In this document: positions 2,773 to 30,203 of the stretch, one piece after another
How the letters are laid out: each line of letters begins with the position of its first letter
Position numbering within the stretch: position 1 is the first letter of the stretch
Source of the DNA: a virus
Reading direction: 5' to 3' (one strand)
IMG/VR virus record: IMGVR_UViG_3300025155_000029
Location: 1 to 30,204 of that record
Length of the DNA stretch: 30,204 nucleotides
Position numbers and translations under genes: made by a program
The notes under the pieces: generated by a model
The model's database searches: none
Told to the model about the DNA's origin: nothing
The model's input: the letters and a program-made list of their open reading frames with translations, nothing else

Positions 2773-4472
2773 TGGACTTTCTTATACCTAAAAATCTATC
2801 AGGAGATAGACTTGAATGGCGTCCTAACAGGAAACAAGCTGAGTTTCTTTCTATTCCCTGGAGTATTAAAGAAGGATTATATGGAGGTGGAGCAGGTTCA
2901 GGTAAGTCTGACGTATTATTAATGTATGGAATTGTTCATCGCTTGCATGAGAATCCTAGATTCAAGCAAGTAGTAATGCGAAGAACAATGCCAGAACTGA
3001 AAAGGGAGATTGTTCCACGTTCTAGAGACATCTATAGAAAATTTGGTGCTACCTTCAACGGAACTGATATGTGCTGGACATTTCCGCGTCCAGACCAATA
3101 TGGTTCAGGAATGAAAAATGAAGGAGCAATGATTTTCTTAGGTCATTGTGAGGAAGAAAAAAATGTTCACATCTACGATACAATGGAAATCTCTTTATAT
3201 ACACCTGATGAAATAACTTCATTAACTGAATATATTTATTTATATATAGCATTTGAAAGAAACCGCGCACCTAAAGACTCTGGTTTGCCCAGTATTACCA
3301 GAGCAGCAGGAATGCCATCAGGAGTTGGACATACATTTACCAAGAAACGCTTTGTTGACCCCTACAAAGCTGGTGGAAAAATTATTGTAGGACGCGGTGG
3401 GAACAAGAGAATTTATATACATGCGACTCTAGAAGATAATAAAGATTACATCGACCCTAGTTATTCTCAATCATTAGATGGTAGACCTGAAGCTGAAAGA
3501 AAAGCTAAGAAGTTTGGTGATTGGGACGCGTATCTTGGATTAGTATTTGATGAATTTAGAGATAAGAAATATCCTGATGAACCTGAAAATGCATTACATG
3601 TAATTGAACCTCATGAAATACCTAATTGGTGGCCTAAAATAATTATAGGTGATTGGGGATACCGTGCATTATGTTATTTGGGATTTTATGCTATTACACC
3701 AAATAAAAGAATAATTCAATATAAAGAATTAGCTTGGTTAAAAACTAAAATTAGTGAATGGGGACCAATAGCGAAACAATTAATTGATAAAGAACAACCA
3801 CGTATCATTAAATTTTGTCAATCAGCTAAACAAGATAGAGGACAAGAACAGACAATTCAGCAACAAATTTCAGAAGCATTAGGAAGAAATATTGAACTAA
3901 CAGTAAATTCAGCAGGTTCTAGAGTAGCTGGTAAGATGTTACTCCATGAGAATTTAAGATGGAAACCAAAACCAATTATTCCTCCTGAATTATTACCTAA
4001 TTTTGATAATGATTATTCTGAATGGGTTTACAGGAATAAAGGTGAGGATGAATACAAAGCATACTTAAGTTTATTTAAATTACCTGAACCCGAAACTAAT
4101 ATTCCTAAATTATTAATATTCAGATGTAATGATGAAAGAAGTCATGAAGGTCATCCTAATTGTTGTCCATTAGTTATTGAAGCAATTAAAGCATGTAATT
4201 ATCCTGAAAAAACTATTGATGGAAAACCAATTGAAGATGTAGCTGAATTCGATGGTGATGACCCATATGATACTACAAGATATGCATTAGATGCTGCTGA
4301 AAGATTTTTTGGAGATGCTAAAACTGAATTTAAGAAAATTCAGGAACAAGAACGAATGTTAGAAATTCTTCGTAGAACTAATGATTGGACCGCGTTCTAT
4401 AGGAATATGAGTAGAATTGAATCTGACCAGAAATTACCTCAATCAATTCGTCGGTATGCTAGGAGACATTGA
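2772..4472 (+). CDS. terL: Terminase large subunit
   Basis: Encodes 566 residues, normal TerL length. The ATPase half has Walker A GGGAGSGKS at residues 38-46, a Walker B-like ISLYTPDE at 140-147 (acidic pair D146/E147) and a TRAAGMPSG coupling-type segment near 177-184. The linker GDWDAYLGLVFDEF (249-262) is a typical terminase landmark. The nuclease half begins IIIGDWGYR with D294 as the likely first metal ligand, and ends near DDPYDTTRYALDAAERFFG. It translocates DNA into the prohead and cuts concatemers. The start is GTG overlapping the previous TAG. It ends in a TGATG overlap with the next gene. A second, truncated N-terminal TerL copy lies at 434-670. Confidence 0.95.
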   Translation: MDFLIPKNLSGDRLEWRPNRKQAEFLSIPWSIKEGLYGGGAGSGKSDVLLMYGIVHRLHENPRFKQVVMRRTMPELKREIVPRSRDIYRKFGATFNGTDMCWTFPRPDQYGSGMKNEGAMIFLGHCEEEKNVHIYDTMEISLYTPDEITSLTEYIYLYIAFERNRAPKDSGLPSITRAAGMPSGVGHTFTKKRFVDPYKAGGKIIVGRGGNKRIYIHATLEDNKDYIDPSYSQSLDGRPEAERKAKKFGDWDAYLGLVFDEFRDKKYPDEPENALHVIEPHEIPNWWPKIIIGDWGYRALCYLGFYAITPNKRIIQYKELAWLKTKISEWGPIAKQLIDKEQPRIIKFCQSAKQDRGQEQTIQQQISEALGRNIELTVNSAGSRVAGKMLLHENLRWKPKPIIPPELLPNFDNDYSEWVYRNKGEDEYKAYLSLFKLPEPETNIPKLLIFRCNDERSHEGHPNCCPLVIEAIKACNYPEKTIDGKPIEDVAEFDGDDPYDTTRYALDAAERFFGDAKTEFKKIQEQERMLEILRRTNDWTAFYRNMSRIESDQKLPQSIRRYARRH

Positions 4473-8093: not shown

Positions 8094-9387
8094 TATTTTA
8101 ACTTTATTCTATAATCCTCCTGATACCGAAATAGGTGGAGTTCCTGAAAGTAAAGAATTATCTGAACAAGAAACTTTTGAATTATTAGATACTGATGAAA
8201 AAACTGAGGAAGAAACTTTAGAATTAGAACCTAAAAAAGAATCTAAGAAGGATGATGAAGATGATGAAACTAAAGAAAAAGATGATGATGAAGAAAAAGA
8301 AGAAGATGAATTAAAGGAAATTGAGGAGGAATTAGAAGAAACTCCTGAAGAAAAACTGGAACTAATGACTCCAGTTCGGCGTAAAGAAATTCTTGCTAAG
8401 TTTCCTAGATTATTCAAAGAATTTCCTTATCTTGAAAGTGCTTATTATCGAGAGCAGGAATTTACTCAATTATTTCCAAGTATCGGTGACGCTAAAGATG
8501 CAGTGAAGAAAGTAGAAACACTTGATAAATTTGAACAAGATTTACTTTCTGGAAATACTGAAAATGTATTGAAACTCGTTAAACAACATGATGAGAATAC
8601 ATTTAATTCTATTGTAGATAATTATCTTAGCACTTTAGCTAAAGTTGATAAGGACGCGCATCTTCATGTAGTGGGAAATATTATTAAAGATACTATTGTT
8701 ACGATGATTCAGGAGGCGCGTGCTAGTGATAATGATGCACTGAAAAATGCTGCTGCGGTTCTGAATCAGTTTGTTTTTGGTAGTTCTACATTTACTCCTA
8801 AACAATTACTAGCTAAGGAAGATACTAGAGAAAATCCAAAGGAAAAAGAATTAAAGGAACGTGAACAGAAAATTCTAAAAGAATCATTTGACCGAAGTAA
8901 AACTGAAATTAATACTAAAATTGATACTGTATTGAAAGGAACTATTGAAAAGTATATTGACCCTAAAGAATCAATGACTGATTATGTTAGACGTAATGCG
9001 ATTAGAGAAGCAATGGAAACTACTCAATCCATTATTAGTCGTGATAGTCGTTTCCGTGGTTTACTTGATAAACTTTGGGAACGCGCGTTCAAGGAAAACT
9101 TTTCGACGGAATCAACAGAAAGAATTCGACAAGCCTATCTTTCAAGAGCCAAAACAGTTATGCCTTCTGTCATTAAAAAGGCCAGAAATGAGGCTCTTAA
9201 AGGTTTAGGCAAGCGCGTGAAGGAAGATGAAGAAGAAGTAGAAACAGAAACACCGAAAAAAGGTCCAGTTCCTCCGGGTCGCTCCACAACCCCTGATAAT
9301 CGTGGATTTAAGGGAACCACGGATAAGGAGAAAGCAACTAAAATTCCATCGGGCATGAGTGCATTGGACTATCTCATGCAAGATTAG
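8074..9387 (+). CDS. Scaffolding protein
   Basis: Encodes 437 residues. Residues 35-110 are extremely acidic and low in complexity (long Glu/Asp/Lys runs). The rest is helical with repeated Lys/Glu heptads, and there are no cysteines. Size, charge pattern and position between portal and coat gene are those of head scaffolds, which fill the prohead and leave before or during packaging. The end (GMSALDYLMQD) could be the coat-binding tail. The ATG at 8074 lies inside the portal gene; its ribosome site would be GGAGAT upstream. A protease-scaffold fusion is unlikely, as no protease motif is visible. Confidence 0.82.
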   Translation: MFKLLNSILTLFYNPPDTEIGGVPESKELSEQETFELLDTDEKTEEETLELEPKKESKKDDEDDETKEKDDDEEKEEDELKEIEEELEETPEEKLELMTPVRRKEILAKFPRLFKEFPYLESAYYREQEFTQLFPSIGDAKDAVKKVETLDKFEQDLLSGNTENVLKLVKQHDENTFNSIVDNYLSTLAKVDKDAHLHVVGNIIKDTIVTMIQEARASDNDALKNAAAVLNQFVFGSSTFTPKQLLAKEDTRENPKEKELKEREQKILKESFDRSKTEINTKIDTVLKGTIEKYIDPKESMTDYVRRNAIREAMETTQSIISRDSRFRGLLDKLWERAFKENFSTESTERIRQAYLSRAKTVMPSVIKKARNEALKGLGKRVKEDEEEVETETPKKGPVPPGRSTTPDNRGFKGTTDKEKATKIPSGMSALDYLMQD

Positions 9388-9397
9388 GAGAGTAACA

Positions 9398-10651
9398 GTG
9401 GCAGTTGTGGAGTCTCAAGTAGCAGCGTTAGAACTTGAGAGAGTTCTACCGAAAGTTCGCGTGCTATTTGAACGAGATGATAAGTTCTACGCAACAATCG
9501 CTAAACGACCTGCGGAGAAAGTATCAAATCGTCAAATGCGCATTCCACTGGAGTTACGTCCTGGAGGTAATTTCCAGTATTTTAATCCTGATGGTGGTGA
9601 CTTAGGCCGTGGTGGTGGTCCCACTTGGGATAAGGCTGTAGTTAGTGCTGTATTCATGTCAGAAGCAATGGAATACACTAAACTAACTCAGTGGTCAACT
9701 GATGATGCTCGTAAATCAGTTCAGAATGCAGTTAGACGTTTAACTGCTTCTGCATTGAATGAAATTCGTCGTCAGTTAGATGCTCAGTTGATGCAGCCTG
9801 GTAATGGTGTAATTGGCACTATTAGTGCTGTATCTACTTCAGCAGGTTCCGATACCCTCACATTAGGAACTGATGGTTTCGGAGCGCGTCTCATTAGGTT
9901 TGGTCAGCAAGTCCAAATCTTTGATACAACACTAGCCACTGACCGTGGTTCTACCGTGGTCACTGGTTATGATGTTGCAAATAAACAAGTGACAGTAACT
10001 CCTTCAGTAGCAGGAACAGTTGCTACTGATTTGATTGTTACTGAAGGACTTTCATCTCCTACATCGCTTCCGGCGTTGTTTGGAGTTCCTTATCATCACT
10101 CAAATGCTTCTACTGGAACTTGGTTAGGATTCAGTAGAGTAACTACTCCTGAAATTCGTTCTAATCGTGTGAATGCTGGTGGTGCTGGTCTTACACTACC
10201 ACTTCCGCGATTAGCAATGAATCGCATTGGTGACAGAATTGGCGATGATGCCATGTTTAAACCTGTCGCCTGGATGCATCCTGCACAACAGCAGGCATAC
10301 GAGGAAATTGGTCAGCTTGTTACCACATTAAACCAAATGCCCGGTAAACAGGGTGAGTTGGATATGTATTTTGGTGGCAAGATGAGTATGGCTGGTGCTC
10401 CAGTTAAACGTCATTTTAACTGGGACAGAACCCGTATTGACTTCATTGTGGAGCAAGTATGGGGACGTTCAGAGATTCTTCCTATTGGTTTCTACAAAAC
10501 TGATGGAAGGCATATCTTTGAGATTCGTGGAGCTTCAGGTGGTGTTACTACATCTGAAATCTTCTACATGGTGGTAGGGATGCAGACATTTGTCAATAAC
10601 CCTGCTGCTACTTCTTACATTGATAATCTTGCTGTTCCAGCAGGATACTAA
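9398..10651 (+). CDS. Major capsid protein
   Basis: Encodes 417 residues from GTG 9398, preceded by TAGGAG; the open frame upstream lacks any site and would add 13 odd residues. The helical N-terminus (VESQVAALELERVLPKVRVLFERDDKFYATIAKR) is followed by an E-loop-like region and a beta-rich central insertion around residues 140-225. The C-terminus (FNWDRTRIDFIVEQVWGRSEI) fits an HK97-fold coat protein of the podovirus type. It follows scaffold by ten bases and is followed by two decoration-type genes. It is the most conserved-looking and presumably most highly expressed gene here. Confidence 0.88.
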   Translation: MAVVESQVAALELERVLPKVRVLFERDDKFYATIAKRPAEKVSNRQMRIPLELRPGGNFQYFNPDGGDLGRGGGPTWDKAVVSAVFMSEAMEYTKLTQWSTDDARKSVQNAVRRLTASALNEIRRQLDAQLMQPGNGVIGTISAVSTSAGSDTLTLGTDGFGARLIRFGQQVQIFDTTLATDRGSTVVTGYDVANKQVTVTPSVAGTVATDLIVTEGLSSPTSLPALFGVPYHHSNASTGTWLGFSRVTTPEIRSNRVNAGGAGLTLPLPRLAMNRIGDRIGDDAMFKPVAWMHPAQQQAYEEIGQLVTTLNQMPGKQGELDMYFGGKMSMAGAPVKRHFNWDRTRIDFIVEQVWGRSEILPIGFYKTDGRHIFEIRGASGGVTTSEIFYMVVGMQTFVNNPAATSYIDNLAVPAGY

Positions 10652-10979: not shown

Positions 10980-11288
10980 ATGTCAGATTTACTTCATCAA
11001 AATCTGGCAACAGTTCAGAGTCAGGCACAACCAACTCCTAAAACTGTTGCCTCGGCTACCACAATTGCTCCAGAAACATTCATTACGTTTGTTACTGGAA
11101 CAACTAACGTAGCTCAAATCACTCCACCTGTCACCGGACAACATATGCTGTGTTTAATTTTCACAGATGGTGCTCCTGGTGACCTTACAACTGCAGGAAA
11201 TATCTTGGTAGGGACAACTACAGTAGTACAGAACGCTCCTGTTTTACTGTTCTATGACCCTACTCAAGCAAAGTATTATCCAAAGTAA
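10980..11288 (+). CDS. Capsid decoration-type protein, copy 2
   Basis: Encodes 102 residues from ATG 10980; an upstream TTG at 10968 overlaps the AAAGGAG site and is rejected. After a 25-residue polar N-terminus it repeats the domain of copy 1 (ASATTIAPETFITFVTGTTN, then LTTAGNILVGTTTVV, then KYYPK). The extra N-terminal segment may bind a different site on the shell. A GC-rich hairpin with a T-stretch starts 10 bases after the stop, so this may be the last gene of the head-shell transcript. Confidence 0.7.
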   Translation: MSDLLHQNLATVQSQAQPTPKTVASATTIAPETFITFVTGTTNVAQITPPVTGQHMLCLIFTDGAPGDLTTAGNILVGTTTVVQNAPVLLFYDPTQAKYYPK

Positions 11289-11298
11289 ACTGGATGAA

Positions 11299-11335
11299 AG
11301 ATGGTGGGTTGAAATATACCCACCATCTAGTTTTA
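11299..11335 (+). terminator. Candidate intrinsic terminator after decoration genes
   Basis: AGATGGTGGGT (11299-11309) pairs perfectly with ACCCACCATCT (11318-11328), giving an 11-bp stem with an 8-base loop TGAAATAT. AGTTTTAAT follows. The T-tract has only four bases, so termination may be partial. It lies between the stop at 11288 and the preferred methyltransferase start at 11338, which fits a level drop between abundant head proteins and a modification cassette. Confidence 0.5.
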
Positions 11336-11337
11336 AT

Positions 11338-11883
11338 ATGAATCTAGAACGAGCATTAGAAATTGATGGTTGGATGGCACCAGATGAATTACAATGGTTA
11401 GCTGAAACTGCACATAAGTCAAAAACTATAGTTGAATTTGGTTGTTATAAAGGTCGCTCAACTCGTGCTATGGCAGATAATTTACCTATTTTTGGTAGAA
11501 TATATGCTGTAGACCCTTGGAATGGAACTTACTATAGTGATAATGGAAATGTTCATGAAGGAATTAATACTGATGTTTATGATGAATTTGAGAATAATTT
11601 GAGAGACCATATCATTGCTGATAGAGTGGTTCCATTTAAAAGTTATTCTAAGAATTTTTTAAGAAATATTAAAGCTGATTTTGTTTTTATAGATGGAGAC
11701 CATAGATTTTTAGAAGTTTTAAATGATATTAAAATTGGATTAGGTTTATTGAAAGATGAAGGAATTATAGCAGGACATGATTTTATTCATACTGCTGATT
11801 GGCCTGGAGTAAGAAAAGCAGTTGAACAAATTTTTGGTAAGGATATTAAACTAGTTAACAGTATTTGGTGGAGACAAGAATGA
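11338..11883 (+). CDS. Class I SAM-dependent methyltransferase
   Basis: Encodes 181 residues from ATG 11338. The frame stays open to an ATG at 11254, but that start overlaps the previous gene and spans the terminator-like hairpin, and the family usually begins with the ...IDGWM.P.ELQWL segment seen at residues 9-21. Motif I is VEFGCYKGRST (32-42), the acidic ribose-binding strand is YAVDPW (56-61), and a later strand reads FVFIDGDH. This is the Methyltransf_24-like group often found with glycosyltransferases. Probable substrate is a sugar or surface glycan; DNA methylation motifs (DPPY/NPPY) are absent. The ATGA overlap with the glycosyltransferase couples the two genes. Confidence 0.85.
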   Translation: MNLERALEIDGWMAPDELQWLAETAHKSKTIVEFGCYKGRSTRAMADNLPIFGRIYAVDPWNGTYYSDNGNVHEGINTDVYDEFENNLRDHIIADRVVPFKSYSKNFLRNIKADFVFIDGDHRFLEVLNDIKIGLGLLKDEGIIAGHDFIHTADWPGVRKAVEQIFGKDIKLVNSIWWRQE

Positions 11884-12563
11884 AAGTATTAATCGGAGTT
11901 CCTACTGCGGAATATGCGCGTCGAGCAGATTTTTATGATTATTTCAATATGCTTGAAAAACCTGAAGGAACTATTTGTACTTTTTGTCATGGTCAGTCGC
12001 CTGCACGCAATCGAAATCTAATCATTCAGCAGGCATTAGACCATAATTGCACTCATGTCTTTTTTCTAGATGATGATGTTGCATTTAAACCTGATATTCT
12101 AATGAAATTATTAGACTGGAATGTAAACATGGTAACTGGTTTATATTTAATGCGTAATTATCCTCATCGTCCTATTCTATTTGATTATGCAAATAATAAA
12201 GGTGAATGTCATCATGTTACTCTAGAACGACAAACTGGATTAATTGAAGTAGTAAATACTGGACTAGGATGTGTTCTAATTAATACCGAAGTATTCAAGG
12301 CAATGGAAAAACCTTGGATTACATTAGGTGAACTTGAACGTGACCATTGGTGTGATGACATTAGTTTTTTTAATCGAGCGCGTGTCGCTGGATTTAAATT
12401 ATATTGTGATTTTTCTATTCTAGTAGGTCATTTCGCATCTGTTACAGTTTGGCCTAACATGATTGATGGAAATTGGATGACAACTTATGATAGTCATGGT
12501 AAAGGTCAAGTAACATTTCCTCAATATAAAGAGGAAAAGTATCATGAAACTGTTCAAAAATAG
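11880..12563 (+). CDS. Glycosyltransferase, GT-A type
   Basis: Encodes 227 residues starting at the ATGA overlap (11880). The GT-A fold is suggested by MKVLIGVPT at the start, ARNRNLIIQQAL (nucleotide-sugar region), and a metal-binding HVFFLDDDVAF at about 60-68 (DDD 64-66). Later acidic residues in HWCDDISFFNRARVAGF could include the catalytic base. The size is that of a minimal transferase domain, with no membrane segment. Together with the methyltransferase it probably glycosylates and methylates a virion surface protein or a host glycan. The acceptor is unknown; the adjacent decoration proteins are attractive candidates. Confidence 0.82.
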   Translation: MKVLIGVPTAEYARRADFYDYFNMLEKPEGTICTFCHGQSPARNRNLIIQQALDHNCTHVFFLDDDVAFKPDILMKLLDWNVNMVTGLYLMRNYPHRPILFDYANNKGECHHVTLERQTGLIEVVNTGLGCVLINTEVFKAMEKPWITLGELERDHWCDDISFFNRARVAGFKLYCDFSILVGHFASVTVWPNMIDGNWMTTYDSHGKGQVTFPQYKEEKYHETVQK

Positions 12564-13098
12564 TAATTCAGTAGATTCAATTAATTCTCAATTAATTGAC
12601 TTGTATGGTATTGATACTATCACTGGAGACCCAATATGGCGCGTCCAATGGAGTGAATATACTGAAAAACGAATTACTAAATTTACTGAGGCCGGAGTAG
12701 AACTTCTACATCCGGCCCTAATTGAACATCGAAAATATAATTATATTAGAGATAGATGGGTTTTGGAAAATTTAGTTTTAGTTCCTGATTATCAACAAGC
12801 TGAATTAGCAGGTATTAAAATATCTTATGAACCTATTTGGACTTTTGAAGATAAGGATGATAATCCAGTATTTCCAACTTTAATTGGATGTCAGTTTATC
12901 ATTAATTTGATTCAATCAGTTCGTGGTAAATCAAATATGGCTAAATATGTTAATAATGAGGAAGGAACTAAGGAGGAAATTGAGAAATCAACTGCTCAAA
13001 TATATGAAGAATTATATGGCAATGAAACTCCGGTAACAGATGCGCTTGCTTATAAGACCGGCGTAGTTAATCCATATTGGGGGAGAGAAAGACCATGA
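12544..13098 (+). CDS. Conserved phage protein of unknown function, head/tail region
   Basis: Encodes 184 residues. The pattern LYGIDTITGDPIWRVQWSEYTEKR ... HRKYNYIRDRWVLENLVLVP ... SYEPIWTFEDKDDNPVFPT is one I recognise as recurring in structural modules of environmental podoviruses, without assigned function. Aromatic residues and acidic turns are frequent. The C-terminal 45 residues are helical. AGAGGAAAAG precedes the ATG, which lies 20 bases inside the glycosyltransferase gene. It ends in an ATGA overlap with the next gene. Probably a minor structural or assembly protein. Confidence 0.7.
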   Translation: MKLFKNSNSVDSINSQLIDLYGIDTITGDPIWRVQWSEYTEKRITKFTEAGVELLHPALIEHRKYNYIRDRWVLENLVLVPDYQQAELAGIKISYEPIWTFEDKDDNPVFPTLIGCQFIINLIQSVRGKSNMAKYVNNEEGTKEEIEKSTAQIYEELYGNETPVTDALAYKTGVVNPYWGRERP

Positions 13099-13790
13099 GT
13101 ATCGTTGGTGAATTTCCAGGATTAGAATCACATAGACGACAGTTTCGCGCACCTGTCAATCCGTTAGACAAATCAACTGTTGTTTCTATTCTACCTAAAT
13201 TTATTCGTGAATTTAAGGCTACTATTTTTCCAGGAACTTTTGAGTTAGAACCTGGTTCTTATGATAAGCCTTCTATTCTAGTAATTTCATCTTCTAGTTG
13301 GTGGAAAGATGTAGGTGAAGACCAACCATTACTTGAAATTCCTCAAAGTAGCATTCAAGTTGCAGATTCTATTGTAAATGATTACTGCAATAGTTGTCTT
13401 GGCAGTGATATGGTAGATTCTATTCCAGGATTGTTTTTTGTTCCAGGAGCTATTACAGTTAAAGATTTGAGAGAACCCAAACTTAAACCACATCTTGATA
13501 GGGCCAAAGCACGTCAGGATAATTGGTATAGAATTTTAGTAAAACTAGCTGATGCATTTTGGGCGCGAACTAATGGTAATCCATTAGCTATCTCTGATGA
13601 CATGAGATTAGCTGCGCGTGAACTTGGAATTAAAGATAAGGATTGGTTGAAAGATTACCAGCAAGAAGGAAATGAACGGTGTCCTGCTTGTGGAACTTTC
13701 AGAAATCCAAACTATCCTGTTTGTGCTAATTGTCATGCGGTTCTTGATATGAAGAAGGTTCAGGAACTCGGAATTAAGTTTGCGGAGTAA
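13095..13790 (+). CDS. Structural-region protein with C-terminal zinc ribbon
   Basis: Encodes 231 residues from ATG 13095 (ATGA overlap, GGGAGAG upstream). The first 110 residues are beta-rich (STVVSILPKFIREFKATIFPGTFELEPGS). A helical middle part follows (LDRAKARQDNWYRILVKLADAFWART). The end has a zinc ribbon with C196, C199, C210 and C213 (CPACGTFRNPNYPVCANC). I recognise the combination from podovirus-like environmental phages, next to connector genes. A role in head completion or in binding an assembly partner is inferred. It is the second virion-region protein with a zinc ribbon, after portal. Confidence 0.7.
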   Translation: MSIVGEFPGLESHRRQFRAPVNPLDKSTVVSILPKFIREFKATIFPGTFELEPGSYDKPSILVISSSSWWKDVGEDQPLLEIPQSSIQVADSIVNDYCNSCLGSDMVDSIPGLFFVPGAITVKDLREPKLKPHLDRAKARQDNWYRILVKLADAFWARTNGNPLAISDDMRLAARELGIKDKDWLKDYQQEGNERCPACGTFRNPNYPVCANCHAVLDMKKVQELGIKFAE

Positions 13791-13792
13791 TT

Positions 13793-14488
13793 GTGGCTAC
13801 ACCTGATTTTACAGCTGGCAGCATAATGGATTCTTCGGCTGCACTATTAAATGATAGTGTTAAGGAGAAATATACTTATGTTGTCCAGCTCCCTTATCTA
13901 AAAATTGCATTAACTGAACTTAGGGAATTATTTGAATTAAATAATCTTCCTATTACTAATGCAACTTCATCTATTCTAGTTGTTCCAGCAGGAACTGTTT
14001 TAGTTGGATTTAATACTAGTCCTGCATTACCAACTAATTTAGTAGAAATTCAAAAGTTATGGGAACGCGAATCTGGTGTAGGTGGTTTCGTTCCCATGAC
14101 TAAAAGAGAGTTTCTACCAGCATGGGACCCTACTGAAACTACTAGCGCGTTTGATATATGGTCATGGCAACAGAATTTTATTAATGTTTTACCATCTAGT
14201 AGGATAAATGATTTAAAAATGGATTACATAGCACAATTATTTAATACTACTATTGATGAAAATTCTAACATTGGAGTAATTGATGCTCAGAATTTCCTAT
14301 GGTATAGAACTGCTGGCTTATGTGCTGAATACATAGATGAGGATACAGACCGTGCAGATAGATTAAATAGTAATGCAGGAGGAGCATTAGATAGAATCAC
14401 TGGAATTAAAAATAAAGGAAAACAATCAATAATCACGCGACATAAACCATTTAGGGCTGGTTATAAAAGACGTGGTAGACTGGCATGA
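13793..14488 (+). CDS. Probable head-tail connector (P22 gp4-like position)
   Basis: Encodes 231 residues starting with GTG 13793, GGAG six bases upstream. The N-terminal half has a helical hairpin (VVQLPYLKIALTELRELFELNN) followed by beta strands. The centre is Trp-rich (LWERESG ... WDPTETTSAFDIWSWQQNFI). The C-terminal tail is strongly basic (KPFRAGYKRRGRLA). Size, basic tail and position just before a large beta-propeller-type tail protein fit the connector that attaches to portal. Assignment rests mostly on gene order, as no catalytic motif is visible. ATGA overlap with the next gene. Confidence 0.55.
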   Translation: MATPDFTAGSIMDSSAALLNDSVKEKYTYVVQLPYLKIALTELRELFELNNLPITNATSSILVVPAGTVLVGFNTSPALPTNLVEIQKLWERESGVGGFVPMTKREFLPAWDPTETTSAFDIWSWQQNFINVLPSSRINDLKMDYIAQLFNTTIDENSNIGVIDAQNFLWYRTAGLCAEYIDEDTDRADRLNSNAGGALDRITGIKNKGKQSIITRHKPFRAGYKRRGRLA

Positions 14489-24995: not shown

Positions 24996-26624
24996 ATGCC
25001 AGAACCAATATTTCCTAGAAGTGAAATATCCAGAATAGCTCATCAAATAAAAGATGAAGACCCTGATGCATGGTATCATTGTCATGTATTAGGAGACCCT
25101 AAACGTCTTAATTATATGATTAAAGTAGGTAAAAAATGTTTTAGTGAATCTAATGGTTCTGTAAGTGGTAATTGGTCTAATGGTAACAAAAACAAGATGT
25201 CGGCTGATGGAATATCATTTTTGGCTGCTAATGGTAATTATTATTTTATTGATATAATTATTGGTGCTAAAGATAGACTTGATAGTCCAGAACCTACATT
25301 ATCTGTGCATTCAGTAGGTGAAGAGGCATTATTAAGAGATGGTGCTGGTAATTATATTGGACGCGACGGATTTATTGAACTCAATGAATTTCCTCCTTAT
25401 TTTGGTGGGGACGGTTTAGCTGATACTACCTTATTAGGTCATTCATTATTCTGGGGGTTAGGTGGGTATAAGAAATATAGACAACAATTAACTGAAAATT
25501 TATCTCATATTAAACATGATTTAGGTGCGGACTATGTTAGGTGGTTTTTTACTGTAGGAACTTTCGATGGTGGAATTGGCCAAGACCCATTTTCTGATAT
25601 TGGAGCTTTCTATAACTGGTCTAATCATTTACAACTATGTTATGGAATGATGAATTTATTGAAAAGTTTTGGACTTAAATCTCAATTAACTTTAGTAGGC
25701 GCGTTTGGTCAAGCTGATACACAAACAAAACGTGATGCTATAGTTGATAGAGCCGCTGTCTTAATTAAGGATTATATTGATGATTTTGTAGTAGTTGAAA
25801 TGTGGAATGAATATAAAGTTAATCATGCTGAACGCGCATGGTTACGTAATATGGCTAGAAGATTACAAAGTCAATTACCAGCAGGATTTCCAATTGGATT
25901 ATCTTCTCCTGATTGTGTAATGGGTGGAAATGCTTCAACTCAAGAAGTATTAGCAGAAATTGAAGCTATGTATGGTGGTGATAGTGGAGCAAATACTTTA
26001 ATCATTCATAATACACGTCCTGAACCAATTTGGCGCGCTGAAACATTACGTCAAATTGGCATTATTATGGCTATTGTAGAAGGTGAACCTCGCGGTCCTG
26101 GTGCTAGTGCCGGAGGTGATATAATTGACCATAATGTATTAGGTAATGATTATTTATCAGCGATTCGAGCGCGTGCTAAGACTTATACTGCACATAGTAT
26201 GCCTGGTATTTGGGGTGGTCATTGTGACCCTAGATGGAATTTTCAAAATAAATGGAAGAATGTTTGGGAGGTAACTAATTGGAATAATATAGCAGATAAT
26301 TTTAAATCAATTCGTGAAACAGGTGAACCTATAGGGGGAGAAATGCCATTACCAAATCGAGGTGAAGTATTCCAATTTTTACAATGGTTAGATTGGTTTT
26401 ATACTGCACAGGAAGGATTACAGAGAGAAGCTGGTTTAGTATTTTTACGTAGAAATGACGAAGGTATTATTGTAGGAGCTAATGCAGATTTGGAAGGCGT
26501 AGCAGCATGGGGATATGATGTTTATATAGCACAAAGAACATCAGGTAAATCTCATGAAGAAGCTCAAGAAGAAGTTAGACGACAGATTGAAAATTCTGGG
26601 GAATGGAAGTCTAAACATCCATAA
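24996..26624 (+). CDS. Clan GH-A-like glycoside hydrolase, virion-associated candidate
   Basis: Encodes 542 residues. Residues 1-90 form an N-terminal module. From about 90 a TIM-barrel-like pattern follows: DYVRWFFTVGTFD; FVVVEMWNEYKVN with N271-E272 as the strand-4 acid/base; TLIIHNTRPEP with H338 at strand 6; IIMAIVEGEP with E362 (or E364) as the likely strand-7 nucleophile. This is the catalytic layout of clan GH-A retaining enzymes (GH5-like). There is no signal peptide, so it is either virion-borne, acting as a depolymerase on host glycan, or released at lysis. It is the last gene of the rightward operon, after the internal-virion genes. The exact family and substrate are not determined. 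Confidence 0.72.
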   Translation: MPEPIFPRSEISRIAHQIKDEDPDAWYHCHVLGDPKRLNYMIKVGKKCFSESNGSVSGNWSNGNKNKMSADGISFLAANGNYYFIDIIIGAKDRLDSPEPTLSVHSVGEEALLRDGAGNYIGRDGFIELNEFPPYFGGDGLADTTLLGHSLFWGLGGYKKYRQQLTENLSHIKHDLGADYVRWFFTVGTFDGGIGQDPFSDIGAFYNWSNHLQLCYGMMNLLKSFGLKSQLTLVGAFGQADTQTKRDAIVDRAAVLIKDYIDDFVVVEMWNEYKVNHAERAWLRNMARRLQSQLPAGFPIGLSSPDCVMGGNASTQEVLAEIEAMYGGDSGANTLIIHNTRPEPIWRAETLRQIGIIMAIVEGEPRGPGASAGGDIIDHNVLGNDYLSAIRARAKTYTAHSMPGIWGGHCDPRWNFQNKWKNVWEVTNWNNIADNFKSIRETGEPIGGEMPLPNRGEVFQFLQWLDWFYTAQEGLQREAGLVFLRRNDEGIIVGANADLEGVAAWGYDVYIAQRTSGKSHEEAQEEVRRQIENSGEWKSKHP

Positions 26625-26792
26625 TCATTCCTTAGCAGTTAAAATTATAACTTCTTTGTCAGTTAAACCGAGTTTACCTATTTCTATGTTTAAAATAGGA
26701 AAATAAACTGAACCTGCTTTAAAATAAACCTCCTTTTGATTTTCAGATTCTCGTTTAACATACAACCATTTTAGTAGTTCTTCGCCTGTCAT
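26625..26792 (-). CDS. Small hypothetical protein, end of leftward operon
   Basis: Encodes 55 residues (MTGEELLKWLYVKRESENQK at the start). It is a charged, mixed alpha/beta protein with no recognised motif. GAGG five bases before the ATG and an ATGA overlap with the upstream minus-strand gene support it. Its stop codon begins at the very next base after the hydrolase stop, so the two operons converge with no intergenic DNA. Confidence 0.7.
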   Translation of the reverse strand: MTGEELLKWLYVKRESENQKEVYFKAGSVYFPILNIEIGKLGLTDKEVIILTAKE

Positions 26793-27025
26793 TTTATCCT
26801 CGTTTTAACTAAATCTTCTAGGGTTTCAAAATCAGGAGCTTTTATATAACCACTGAATTCAAATCCAATCATATGATTATAATTGGAAACAATATAATAT
26901 TCTGTTCCATTTTTAGCCCTACACCATCTATTAAGTATATCTATAGTTTCAATTTCATATCTAGAACGTAACCATTCAAGACTTTGTGTTAAATTAGATG
27001 AAAGAACTGCAATTGGTTTTTCCAT
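26789..27025 (-). CDS. Hypothetical 78-residue protein
   Basis: Encodes 78 residues (MEKPIAVLSSNLTQSLEWLR at the start). It contains a helix-strand pattern with RWCRAKNGTEYYIVSNYN and an FEFSGYIKAPDFETLEDLV tail. AGGAG lies six bases before the ATG. It is downstream of the tRNA gene and coupled by ATGA to the last gene of the array. No family recognised; a small cytoplasmic early protein. Confidence 0.7.
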   Translation of the reverse strand: MEKPIAVLSSNLTQSLEWLRSRYEIETIDILNRWCRAKNGTEYYIVSNYNHMIGFEFSGYIKAPDFETLEDLVKTRIK

Positions 27026-27044
27026 TTTAATCTCCTATTGATAA

Positions 27045-27126
27045 TGCGCGTGGTCGGACTCGAACCGACATGCTTTTCAGCGACAAATTTTAAGTCTGTT
27101 GTGTATACCAATTCCACCACACGCGC
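27045..27126 (-). tRNA. tRNA-Leu (anticodon UAA)
   Basis: The minus strand folds as a class II tRNA. The acceptor stem is GCGCGTG with CACGCGC and discriminator A. The D region TGGAATTGGTATAC follows, then an anticodon stem ACAGA/TTTGT with loop CTTAAAA (anticodon TAA), a short variable arm GCT-GAAA-AGC, and T arm GTCGG-TTCGAGT-CCGAC. CCA is not encoded. The phage uses TTA heavily for leucine, so the tRNA fits its codon needs. It lies within the leftward early array between two protein genes. Confidence 0.95.
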
Positions 27127-27134
27127 TTGATTAA

Positions 27135-27350
27135 TTATTCTACCTCAGAATTAGGGTCATTAAATACTACTGCTTTAATAGCCCACATTGCAGTTTGTTC
27201 ATTATTAGTTAAAGCGATTGATTGATGACGAGATTGTGGACAAATCTCTTTAATCAATCTTTCACCCTCACTAAAATGTTCTCTAAGTTTATTAATTTTC
27301 TCTAGTCCCTCTGATGATGGTTTGTGATATGCGTAAGGTTTGTCAATCAT
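27135..27350 (-). CDS. Acb2/Tad1-like cyclic-nucleotide sponge candidate
   Basis: Encodes 71 residues from the ATG at 27350, with GGGAG six bases upstream; the longer frame to 27434 has no such site and overlaps the next gene. The pattern SSEGLEKINKLREHFSEGERLI, then CPQSRHQSIALTNNEQ.AMWAIKA, fits the two-helix Acb2/Tad1 hairpin family (long helix, cP.SR...A.t..E.a..wa.kAi). Known members sequester cyclic nucleotide or cADPR-type signals of CBASS and Thoeris immunity. The usual LE before the last helix is NE here. Assignment is by pattern recognition only; binding specificity is unknown. It is two bases downstream of the cold-shock gene. Confidence 0.72.
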   Translation of the reverse strand: MIDKPYAYHKPSSEGLEKINKLREHFSEGERLIKEICPQSRHQSIALTNNEQTAMWAIKAVVFNDPNSEVE

Positions 27351-27351
27351 T

Positions 27352-27582
27352 TTAACTCCCAATATTTGGAAAATCTGCCCTTCTAACGTTAGATGCACGC
27401 GGTCCTTTTCTACTATTTTCTTCCTCAAATTCAACTGGAACTAAATTCTTTTCTTTCATATCAACTTCTAAATCTTTCCAATGTCCACTGAAATCACTCC
27501 TGTGAAAGAAATAGTCCACTTTACCACAGCGGATAAAACCGAATCCTTTTTCCGCGACTAATCTAATTACTTCACCTTTCAT
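27352..27582 (-). CDS. Cold-shock-domain protein
   Basis: Encodes 76 residues. It has the cold-shock fold signature: KGEVIRLVAEKGFGFIRCG with RNP1-like KGFGFI at residues 11-16, DYFFHRSD (RNP2-like) at about 23-30, and PVEFEEENSRKGPRASNVRR near the end. It binds single-stranded RNA or DNA. The start is placed at ATG 27582 with GAGGAG eleven bases upstream; a GTG at 27594 abuts that site and is unlikely. The gene follows the 74-residue protein by a few bases. It could act as RNA chaperone in early infection. Confidence 0.88.
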   Translation of the reverse strand: MKGEVIRLVAEKGFGFIRCGKVDYFFHRSDFSGHWKDLEVDMKEKNLVPVEFEEENSRKGPRASNVRRADFPNIGS

Positions 27583-27587
27583 TTTGT

Positions 27588-27812
27588 TTACCACTCCTCT
27601 ATTGTAATTTCAGTATCTTCATCTATTTTACTTAATCTAATTCCATCACCCATCATCCGATATGTATAAAATTCACTACCTACACAATTTAAAACTTCTT
27701 CTAAAACTTTAATTAATTCTGTTGGATTTTTAACCTTCATTCTAGTTTCATCTTTATAACCTGCATTTAAAACTAATTCATCTGAATTACAGTTAACTAC
27801 TATGTTAATCAT
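27588..27812 (-). CDS. Hypothetical 74-residue protein
   Basis: Encodes 74 residues (MINIVVNCNSDELVLNAGYK at the start). It is an acidic alpha/beta protein with a helix around KNPTELIKVLEEVLNCV and a C-terminal strand (EDTEITIEEW). AAGGAAG lies six bases before the ATG, and the start overlaps the previous gene by eight bases. No family recognised; a small early phage protein by context. Confidence 0.68.
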   Translation of the reverse strand: MINIVVNCNSDELVLNAGYKDETRMKVKNPTELIKVLEEVLNCVGSEFYTYRMMGDGIRLSKIDEDTEITIEEW

Positions 27813-28038
27813 TTTGTTCTTCCTTTTCTTTTCTCATTTTAATTGCATCATCTAATATCGTATGCCATACATTTTTTCCCCAACCATCTAGCATACAATA
27901 TTTTTGAACATATTCATGTGCATCAGACAATCTTCTACTAGTATCTTCATTTGCATGTGCATGTCCTATTTCTCTAGACAACCACTCAATAATTTCATAT
28001 CTATTATTAAATATCATTTTATCTTTAAGAGAATTCAT
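27805..28038 (-). CDS. Hypothetical 77-residue helical protein
   Basis: Encodes 77 residues, mainly helical and charged: YEIIEWLSREIGHAHANEDT, HEYVQKYCML, WHTILDDAIKMRKEKEEQ. His and Cys residues are scattered without a zinc pattern. An AAAGGAAA site precedes the ATG, and the start overlaps the 40-residue zinc-ribbon gene by ATGA. No family recognised. Confidence 0.68.
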   Translation of the reverse strand: MNSLKDKMIFNNRYEIIEWLSREIGHAHANEDTSRRLSDAHEYVQKYCMLDGWGKNVWHTILDDAIKMRKEKEEQND

Positions 28039-28157
28039 TTTTGTTTCCTTTCTTTTATTTCAGATAAATTTTCCTTTATCATTTTTCCACAATTAGAACA
28101 TCTATCTATATTAATAGGATTCCAATTTCTACAAAATGAACAGCACCATTCAATCAT
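28035..28157 (-). CDS. 40-residue zinc-ribbon protein
   Basis: Encodes 40 residues. Cysteines C6/C9 and C20/C23 make two CxxC pairs (CSFC and CSNC) eleven residues apart, a minimal zinc ribbon, followed by a lysine-rich tail. GGGGAAAC upstream of the ATG is identical to the site of another gene 219 bases away. The stop overlaps the next gene's ATG (ATGA), so the gene is well supported despite its size. A nucleic-acid or protein-binding role is inferred. Confidence 0.72.
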   Translation of the reverse strand: MIEWCCSFCRNWNPINIDRCSNCGKMIKENLSEIKERKQK

Positions 28158-28170
28158 TTCTGTTTCCCCT
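28154..28170 (-). repeat. 17-bp repeated translation-start region (copy 1 of 2)
   Basis: TCATTTCTGTTTCCCCT occurs at 28154-28170 and again, identically, at 28373-28389. Each copy covers the ribosome site and start codon (minus-strand AGGGGAAACAGAAATGA) of a small gene. The repeat suggests duplication of an initiation module or a shared translational operator. Confidence 0.7.
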
Positions 28171-28376
28171 CATTTAAAAATAACAAAGAACATCATTTCA
28201 CCTGTTGGTTTACCATTTTCATCCTTAATTTCAAATAATGTTTTTCCTTCAATATCATATATAATCATTTCTCTATGATGAATTCTTTTTGCTTCATCTG
28301 AGGTTAATTTTACAGCATAATAAGGATATGGACTTCCAATATTATATTCATTTTCATCATCTTGGATAATAGTCAT
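28170..28376 (-). CDS. Hypothetical 68-residue protein
   Basis: Encodes 68 residues (MTIIQDDENEYNIGSPYPYY at the start). It has a helix (LTSDEAKRIHHREMI) and a strand pair with a Gly/Pro turn (FEIKDENGKPTGEMMFFVIFK). The ATG overlaps the ATPase stop as ATGA and uses the repeated AGGGGAAAC site. No motif recognised. Confidence 0.68.
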   Translation of the reverse strand: MTIIQDDENEYNIGSPYPYYAVKLTSDEAKRIHHREMIIYDIEGKTLFEIKDENGKPTGEMMFFVIFK

Positions 28377-29602
28377 TTCTGTTTCCCCTGTAAGTATCGT
28401 TTCATTTCCTCAAATACAGCATCAGGCATTTCATAAATAACCTGATTACCCATTGATTTAATTTTAATTTGGCCACCTGCTTCAAGTGAATTAGCACAAT
28501 CAACCCATTCATTCAGATTACCATGCATCCAGTATTTTTTGAGTAATTGTGCTTGACTGATTGAATGCGTATCGCGTATCAATAATTCCTGAATCAGAAT
28601 AGCTTTTCTAGTTGCATTACTAGTTTCTTTGTTTCCTACTTTATTCTGTGTAACCTGTCTAATTCCTGATATTAATTTTTCACCAATTTCAATTGCGAGT
28701 TTTAAAGATTCTAAATCTATTTCTAATTTAGGTTCTTTAGCTAAAGATAATAACATCGCCACTTTTAGAACACTATCTCCAAAACGATTCAATGTTCCTG
28801 TTTCATCTTTTACTTCTGATGCCTTAACTGTTTTTCTAAAATTAACATACCAATCATCATAATATTTTCCTACTTCAGTTAATTCATTATTTTCATCAGA
28901 TAATTCTTTAAATGGTCCATTTAATTTAATTAGTTCTTTTAGATACCTAACTAATTCATCTTCATCTACTACAATACCTCGCCTAGCTAATGAATTAATT
29001 ATTGATTCCTCTTTTTCATAAACAATAAAAGTGCGCGCGAAAAATCCACCCTTTAAATCTTTCATCTCAAAAAATTCATCGGAATGTGCTGCATTAATTC
29101 CACCGAATAATGTAACAGTAGGGTCTTTAAGTTTAAATGTTTCCATTTTTAATAATGAACTATATTCACCTTCCCAATAATTTCTATCATATAAATCAGT
29201 TAGAATGGTTAATGCAGCAGGGTCAGTAACCAATGATGAACTTAATTCCGATGCATTAATATAGCCTACTGATTTAACATTTACGCGGCCACCTGGCTCG
29301 GTTTTTGCAGTCCCTAGTTCCTTTAGGATTCCCTGAATTGATGAACGACCTATAATGAGGCGCGTGTTATTAACTTTCTTAACTAATCGTTTAGACAAAT
29401 TTATAGGTGGTCCTTTCTTCAGACCTGAATCAGCATGAAGAATACAATATATATTTGGATAGAGATTATATTTACCGCCTCTACTAATCCATATATTGTC
29501 CTTTACTACAGCTGATATGGTTACTAAACCTGACCACATCCAAAATGATGTAGGAGACTCCATATCTGAATGCATGTTGATTAGCTTGTCCAGCCATGAC
29601 AT
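28373..29602 (-). CDS. DUF3987-like ATPase
   Basis: Encodes 409 residues with the pattern of DUF3987 proteins (YfjI-like, frequently in phage replication regions). It opens with MSWLDKLINMHSDMESPTSFWMW. The P-loop region YCILHADSGLKKGPPINLSK (residues 52-71) has Gly-Leu-Lys-Lys-Gly-Pro-Pro, lacking the usual GK(S/T). Later blocks are GYINASELSSSLV, DLYDRNYWEGEYSS, TVTLFGGINAAHSDEFF and GGFFARTFIVYE, all usual in the family. A helical C-terminal half ends in a winged-helix-like part (LLKKYWMHGNLNEWVDCANSLEAGGQIKI). Likely a helicase-like or primase-associated ATPase in DNA replication; activity with the changed P-loop is uncertain. AGGGG lies seven bases before the ATG. Confidence 0.78.
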   Translation of the reverse strand: MSWLDKLINMHSDMESPTSFWMWSGLVTISAVVKDNIWISRGGKYNLYPNIYCILHADSGLKKGPPINLSKRLVKKVNNTRLIIGRSSIQGILKELGTAKTEPGGRVNVKSVGYINASELSSSLVTDPAALTILTDLYDRNYWEGEYSSLLKMETFKLKDPTVTLFGGINAAHSDEFFEMKDLKGGFFARTFIVYEKEESIINSLARRGIVVDEDELVRYLKELIKLNGPFKELSDENNELTEVGKYYDDWYVNFRKTVKASEVKDETGTLNRFGDSVLKVAMLLSLAKEPKLEIDLESLKLAIEIGEKLISGIRQVTQNKVGNKETSNATRKAILIQELLIRDTHSISQAQLLKKYWMHGNLNEWVDCANSLEAGGQIKIKSMGNQVIYEMPDAVFEEMKRYLQGKQK

Positions 29603-29610
29603 TACTACCC

Positions 29611-29787
29611 CTATCTTCTGTGAAATTCCTTTAAATCTCTTAGAGTTTTTACCATGACATTTTCTATTTTATCCTTAATTTCCTCTTTAAAATCACACAT
29701 CAAAGAATGCGCGTGCAATGATTTTGAATCTAGTCGAATTTCAAAATCATATTTTTCATCTAATAGAATTCGTTTGAGTATAATCAT
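29611..29787 (-). CDS. Small hypothetical 58-residue protein
   Basis: Encodes 58 residues (MIILKRILLDEKYDFEIRLD at the start), with strand-rich N-terminus and a charged helix (FKEEIKDKIENVMVKTLRDLKEF) at the end. GAGGAA lies about five bases before the ATG. It lies between the 71-residue gene and the ATPase in the same direction with small gaps. No family recognised. Confidence 0.68.
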   Translation of the reverse strand: MIILKRILLDEKYDFEIRLDSKSLHAHSLMCDFKEEIKDKIENVMVKTLRDLKEFHRR

Positions 29788-29796
29788 TTTGATTCC

Positions 29797-30012
29797 TCAG
29801 AATGGAATGTCATCGTTGACGTGTGTATTATAATCCTGTGATTTTCTTTTTTCTTCAAATCTCTGTTCTTCAAATCTCTGAATATCTTTTATTAACAAAG
29901 GAATTTTAGAGCAAATTTCAATTAGAGAATCTCCTTCTACTGAATGAACTGGACCAGCTTGTAGAGGATTATTTATATTTCTCTCAATTATTTGAAGTAA
30001 GTATTTTCTCAT
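29797..30012 (-). CDS. Hypothetical 71-residue protein
   Basis: Encodes 71 residues. It is helical (MRKYLLQIIERNINN ... LIEICSKIPLLIKDIQRFEEQRFEEKRK), with a repeated RFEE(Q/K)R pattern and an acidic tail ending DDIPF. The acidic, aromatic-ended tail resembles the C-terminal tip of single-stranded DNA-binding proteins, though nothing else here matches that family. GGGGAAG precedes the ATG; it overlaps the upstream gene by ATGA. Confidence 0.66.
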   Translation of the reverse strand: MRKYLLQIIERNINNPLQAGPVHSVEGDSLIEICSKIPLLIKDIQRFEEQRFEEKRKSQDYNTHVNDDIPF

Positions 30013-30203
30013 GATTCAACTTCCCCATACGCCTCAAGAACATTAGCAGTAATTCTCATTACTTCACAAAATTTCTTATTATATATAGGTAAATTATTAG
30101 GAATAAGTATTACTCCCATATGAACCATACTAGCAACGTGAGATTGTGACAATACCATAATTAATTCAATTAACCACATTGAAGCAGCATTTCTATCTTC
30201 TTG
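30009..30203 (-). CDS. Partial gene cut by the right edge
   Basis: The last 64 residues of a minus-strand gene whose start lies beyond the window. The visible part is helical (AASMWLIELIMVLSQSHVASMVHMGVILIP, then KFCEVMRITANVLEAYGEVES). The stop overlaps the next gene's ATG (ATGA), which supports the frame. No motif identified; the missing N-terminus prevents assignment. Confidence 0.65.
   Translation of the reverse strand, partial: QEDRNAASMWLIELIMVLSQSHVASMVHMGVILIPNNLPIYNKKFCEVMRITANVLEAYGEVES

Follow-up and report, generated by a model that had tools for sequence, protein, structure and literature searches.

A conserved Acb2-type hairpin protein, probably a cyclic-oligonucleotide sponge, encoded by an uncultured tailed phage

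The locus and its genes

The window, by which we mean the whole stretch of 30,204 bases analysed here, is an IMG/VR virus record of about 36% GC; the phage is tailed and uncultured. Its plus strand carries terminase, portal-like, and capsid genes, and a tightly packed array of small open reading frames occupies the minus strand from 26625 to 30179, reaching the end of the record. This array is presumably transcribed early and consists mostly of genes with no match in Pfam or PHROG, in agreement with an initial annotation that placed an Acb2/Tad1-like anti-defence candidate among tiny genes. Its further suggestion that the neighbouring tiny genes may themselves be anti-defence factors found no support, as one of them encodes a cold-shock-domain protein and family matches are lacking for most of the others.

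The candidate is a complete open reading frame of 71 amino acids (P0001) that runs from ATG to stop between 27350 and 27135 on the minus strand, and its product has the sequence MIDKPYAYHKPSSEGLEKINKLREHFSEGERLIKEICPQSRHQSIALTNNEQTAMWAIKAVVFNDPNSEVE. The plus-strand reading of 27135-27350 contains many stops and was rejected. The initial annotation, which gave no strand, had described a CP.SR...A.t..E...WA.KA pattern in a 71-residue product; the pattern is present on the minus strand as CPQSRHQSIALTNNEQTAMWAIKA, with four residues rather than three between the arginine and the alanine.

The gene is packed closely against its neighbours. Directly upstream is the gene for the 80-residue cold-shock-domain protein (27352-27594, minus strand; PF00313, 37.6 bits), whose stop codon precedes the hairpin ATG by 1 nt and whose 3' end contains a Shine-Dalgarno sequence, GGGAG (27356-27360, minus strand), 5 nt upstream of that ATG. 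A tRNA-Leu(UAA) gene follows 8 nt downstream of the stop codon (27045-27126, minus strand; identified by ARAGORN, and by Rfam RF00005 with 58.6 bits). A DUF3987 or DNA primase-helicase-like protein is encoded in the same array (28373-29602, minus strand; PF13148, 43.9 bits; PHROG 14296, E=3.8e-13). Consensus promoters and terminators near the hairpin gene were not clearly above shuffled expectation.

Family membership, predicted fold and pocket residues

The protein is a member of the Acb2/Tad1 hairpin family. Residues 7-61 match Pfam PF24729 with 49.7 bits (E=4.3e-13) against a cut-off of 27; in the window record the match has E=2e-14, and none of 14 control genomes matched. The same profile gives 71.5 bits with T4 Vs.4 and 86-96 bits with relatives in Paenibacillus phages. 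The protein falls in PHROG 1454 (E=7e-12); against PHROG 717, to which Vs.4 belongs, the match is insignificant (E=0.18). NCBIfam gave no match, and PADLOC returned only one insignificant 12-bit match to SAVED. Searching PDB with the single sequence found Acb2 chains weakly, at E about 0.5 and ranked below a designed protein and OTUB1, both of which are spurious. A profile built from nine relatives and compared with all PDB chains placed Acb2 homolog 43 (9ptq) first with E=0.0026, followed weakly by Vs.4, Tad1, and PaMx33 Acb2.

The AlphaFold2 model, calculated for the monomer, predicts a two-helix hairpin with helices at residues 13-36 and 41-63 and a mean pLDDT of 88.6, so that both the profile search and the check for a helical hairpin proposed in the initial annotation gave positive results. 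The five top Foldseek matches in PDB are all Acb2 chains (three from 7uq2, with 8h2x and 8h2j), at weak E-values of 0.1-1.2 that are common and not surprising for a fold this small, and Acb2/Tad1 hairpin proteins dominate the named matches in the BFVD viral library. Acb2 proteins consist of the hairpin only, at about 65-95 residues and with no beta-domain; the 71 residues found here fit that range, and the relatives are mostly 68-81 residues long.

Comparison with characterised and solved members of the family shows a shared hairpin and considerable sequence divergence. T4 Vs.4/Acb2 (PDB 7UQ2; Jenson 2023, PMC10097602) has a similar PF24729 hairpin and also lies in an array of small genes, and its A66, T68, A77, and M75-W76-A77 are conserved in the window protein; however, the two are only 21% identical in the alignment, and the T4 hairpin is 20 residues longer and lacks the CP.SR turn. 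PaMx33 Acb2 (p26; PDB 8H2J, 8H2X, 8IXZ) is among the top structural matches, and a Tyr and a Lys in its N-terminal half align gap-free with Y8 and R23 in the hmmsearch alignment, which is independent of the alignment with T4, but it is about 20% identical and has a longer chain of 92-93 residues. Acb2 homolog 43 (PDB 9PTQ), for which we found no descriptive paper in the literature searched, is the best sequence match among solved structures and of similarly minimal size (76 residues). It has a lysine at the position of T4 R79 and keeps the turn arginine (R41 in the window protein), but has a Thr at Y8 in the alignment and FFA in place of MWA.

PF24729 proteins of Paenibacillus phages, such as Halcyone gp54 and Sitara gp67, are closer, at 41-44% identity. 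They are likewise hairpin only and keep the equivalents of Y8 and R23, but have a WANAAIARN-like end and lack the K59/F63 pair; we found no functional test of these proteins. Several of the Paenibacillus phage hairpins (for example Halcyone gp54, at L084 2989-3204) are publicly annotated as 'putative phosphomannomutase', although Halcyone gp54 scores 86 bits to Acb2/Tad1, and the label on these phage proteins is probably a misannotation that is spreading.

Several of the residues implicated in ligand binding by T4 Acb2 are matched. In T4 Vs.4, Y8 and F82 stack on cGAMP, which is further held by hydrogen bonds and salt bridges from Y8, H11, K23, and R79, and the hexamer is formed via L29, A66, A73, and A77 (PMC10097602). 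The T68M substitution reduces binding (PMC12657230), and either Y8A or F82C abolishes function in a Panoptes assay (PMC12657218). The T4 cGAMP contacts that PaMx33 Acb2 also keeps are Y8, K23, and R79, which align with Y8, R23, and K59 of the window protein; each of these is present in all 64 non-redundant sequences compared, with lysine and arginine swapped at both basic positions. T4 residues T12, A66, T68, and A77, with roles in the helix cap, the hexamer interface, and binding, correspond to S12, A46, T48, and A57, all of them invariant in the same 64 sequences. Elsewhere the correspondence is looser: H11 and F82 are replaced by P11 and V62, with H9 and F63 adjacent, and PaMx33 Acb2 also lacks H11 and F82, while the interface residues L29 and A73 are G/V and T (positions 29 and 53). 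Eight of the twelve literature-defined positions are invariant, against 14 of the 53 others (Fisher p=0.011), a modest difference in which the twelve include the H11 position, invariant as proline.

Conservation is uneven along the chain. Over the 64 sequences the N-terminal segment IDKPYAYHKPS (residues 2-12, 27315-27347, minus strand), which contains Y8 (27327-27329), averages 98% identity. The average falls to 70% in helix 1 (27243-27314, minus strand), which holds R23 (27282-27284), the equivalent of T4 K23, and is 91% in helix 2 (27162-27230, minus strand), with A46, T48, A57, F63, and K59 (27174-27176), the last being equivalent to T4 R79.

Both the absence of the Tad1 beta-domain and the conservation of residues that match the T4 dinucleotide pocket make an Acb2-type protein the better fit. 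The initial reading of an Acb2/Tad1-like anti-defence protein is thus supported and can be narrowed to the Acb2 type. Tad1 itself combines an N-terminal domain of four antiparallel beta-strands with C-terminal helices, and its gcADPR pocket uses Tad1-specific loops outside the hairpin. A Tad1-type sponge with a gcADPR isomer as its main ligand, acting against Thoeris rather than CBASS, would belong to the same Pfam family, and the SR..(S)A.T..E..MW stretch does match Tad1 chains (7uav, 8kbh, 8kbe), the C-terminal helix motif of Tad1 (7UAV, 8KBE, and others) being SRE..(C)ALT..E..MW. Nevertheless, we consider this very unlikely. Solved Tad1 chains have 123-138 residues, the 71-residue product has no beta-domain in its model, any in-frame upstream extension falls inside the cold-shock-domain gene, and the relatives likewise start near IDK; Tad1 proper was rejected on these grounds of size and domain content.

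Distribution, evolution and relocation

The protein belongs to a sharply defined subtype with the signature IDKPYAYHKPS...WAIKAVVFNDP. Among 50,697 phage records there is no relative above 44% identity; the nearest, at 44%, are mostly from Paenibacillus phages, with others in Brevibacillus, Lactococcus, and Gordonia phages. Relatives are plentiful in IMG/VR, where a first scan confirmed 105 and a broader pattern 404, with identities of 69-93% for the best 80. Nearly the same best 80 came from a second, different set of search patterns, and the high identity is therefore not an effect of the pattern. Searches of sequenced bacterial genomes, covering about 85,000 species, with the hairpin alignment and with the capsid alignment gave no relative, and the window capsid has none in phage isolates. 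The collection suggests that these phages come from soil.

Carriage of the subtype extends beyond one phage group and is variable within it. Of 22 records longer than 40 kb that contain it, seven (45-72 kb) have no detectable homologue of the window capsid, terminase, or portal, yet their hairpin proteins are 74-86% identical to that of the window. A control set of 45 records, 44 chosen by capsid similarity and one by terminase, includes 13 with any PF24729 member, although many of these records are fragments and absence is not proved for each. Five of the 13 are of the window subtype (66-89% identical), and the others include the WANAAIARN type, often beside a cold-shock or DUF3987 gene. Within one phage group the gene is thus present or absent, and one subtype takes the place of another, a patchiness among capsid-selected relatives that fits an accessory counter-defence gene. 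One related phage (record G003, 62.5 kb; L233 and L246) has two PF24729 genes, neither of this subtype.

There is strong evidence of purifying selection. Relative to the window copy, the median pS is 0.84, which is saturated, and the median pN is 0.16; third-position GC ranges from 17 to 97%. The shortness of the reading frame, and the small open reading frames without matches that fill the surrounding array, might raise the suspicion of a chance or decayed frame. The profile E-value of 4e-13, the more than 100 known relatives, the low pN beside a saturated pS, and a conserved Shine-Dalgarno sequence rule this out, leaving it a negligible probability, and the gene noted in the initial annotation is confirmed as real.

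The protein has evolved very slowly. Among loci selected by the hairpin protein itself it is more conserved than the capsid in 25 of 25, the portal in 33 of 33, and the terminase in 37 of 38, counts that are inflated by that selection. In the capsid-selected set, hairpin identity still exceeds capsid identity in four of five cases. There is zero correlation between hairpin identity and capsid or terminase identity, a comparison weakened by range restriction as the loci were picked by hairpin similarity, for which the capsid-selected set and the records without capsid, terminase, or portal homologues served as checks. Recent horizontal transfer was rejected as the cause of the high identity, with pS at 0.66 even against the 93%-identical relative; near-saturated synonymous sites indicate an old exchange and a protein that evolves slowly. 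Read most simply, this means that its target is a chemical unable to mutate.

Such slow evolution is unusual for an arms-race gene and counts against the sponge reading. It raises the alternative of a nucleotide-binding hairpin that works in host takeover or in the physiology of the phage, where it might trap c-di-GMP, c-di-AMP, or another housekeeping messenger, and that does not intercept an immune signal. Protein identities of 69-93% despite saturated synonymous sites, conservation above that of capsid, portal, and nearly always terminase in the hairpin-selected loci, and carriage in unrelated phages would all suit one constant target. However, the family members characterised in the papers cited here are anti-defence sponges, presence is patchy among close phages, and a small-molecule ligand cannot mutate, so that slow evolution is compatible with anti-defence as well. 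We regard the physiological role as unlikely and the Acb2-type sponge as the preferred interpretation.

The gene occupies at least five genome positions, as read from relatives whose neighbouring genes match those of the window, and matching empty sites are visible. It lies beside the cold-shock-domain gene as in the window (position A), between the homologue of the gene at 633-1208 and terminase (B), between terminase and the next gene (C), between homologues of 13077-13790 and 13793-14488 in the structural module (D), one gene further up from there (E), or in the early array several kb from the DUF3987 gene (F). Sites C and D were checked open reading frame by open reading frame, and in the window both are empty: at 4469-4472 (plus strand) the gene for the terminase large subunit overlaps the one that follows, where relatives such as L043 have the hairpin gene, and at 13790-13793 (plus strand), the junction of 13077-13790 and 13793-14488, relatives such as L093 have it together with one small open reading frame. 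L114 presents the reverse case, in which the cold-shock gene is followed after 8 nt by tRNA-Leu(UAA) with no hairpin gene between them; its hairpin gene lies at a distance of 7 kb, behind an ATPase-like gene. L150 has, in order, the cold-shock gene, the hairpin gene, a 50-residue open reading frame, and tRNA-Leu.

Mapped on a tree of 198 nt, location requires 23 changes, against a minimum of 5 and 34 expected for shuffled labels, a rough count given a short tree with poor support and site labels assigned by hand. Location is thus partly inherited, yet has changed repeatedly. In the relatives, DNA conservation reaches upstream no further than the ribosome-binding site, the purine-rich Shine-Dalgarno region being the sole conserved stretch there, and downstream no further than the stop codon. 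What moves is therefore the gene alone together with this site, and no parts of a mobile element are visible.

Proposed function and additional observations

We consider it likely that the gene encodes an Acb2-type sponge for cyclic oligonucleotides, with the hexamer and the ligand proposed by analogy with Acb2. The 71-residue hairpin would assemble into a hexamer in which paired protomers would bind cyclic dinucleotides in pockets built from their IDKPYAYHKPS segments and helix-2 ends, and cyclic trinucleotides may sit at the threefold interfaces. Such a protein would bind, without cutting, the alarm nucleotide produced by CBASS or a similar host system; with that nucleotide captured the effectors would stay silent and the phage could replicate, giving a presumed anti-CBASS effect.

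The protein family and its mechanism are known, and published work characterises Acb2 as relatively rare and confined to specific phage groups (PMC11722364). What is new is the subtype, which is sharply conserved, is missing from isolates, has often relocated, and extends across unrelated phages. It recurs in many uncultured soil phages with its pocket-equivalent residues nearly fixed, a pattern suggesting that a nucleotide-signalling defence is common in soil hosts that are unsequenced or uncultured. More speculatively, the IDKPYAYHKPS/KAVVFNDP subtype could be a distinct class of sponge for one invariant messenger, perhaps an undescribed or a host housekeeping nucleotide, that has passed among unrelated uncultured soil phages as a bare gene, bringing its own ribosome-binding site, and still works in early, packaging, or structural operons; we think this possible but doubtful. 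The protein is compact and offers clear choices of point mutant, which suits it to asking which messenger is trapped.

Several other features of these genomes were noted. The capsid-like gene of the window (9359-10651, plus strand) has many IMG/VR relatives at 68-83% identity, which form a clade of uncultured phages with genomes of roughly 44-49 kb. Within the structural module, 11254-12563 (plus strand) contains a methyltransferase (PF13578) and a glycosyltransferase-like gene, a pair that among the 80 hairpin loci is common only to L102. The last product of the module, a 542-residue protein (24996-26624, plus strand), matches nothing in Pfam, PHROG, or PDB and lacks homologues among the 80 related loci. 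In several of these phages a tRNA-Leu(UAA) lies just 3' of the cold-shock gene or the hairpin gene (window 27045-27126, minus strand; L114 12962-13049; L149 10473-10555; L150 10378-10461), and L139 and L144 instead have a tRNA-Met after the hairpin gene. Finally, an open reading frame in L114 (12087-12623) ends in VPEPST, a hydrophobic stretch, and an arginine, resembling a PEP-CTERM sorting signal and possibly hinting at exosortase-bearing hosts.
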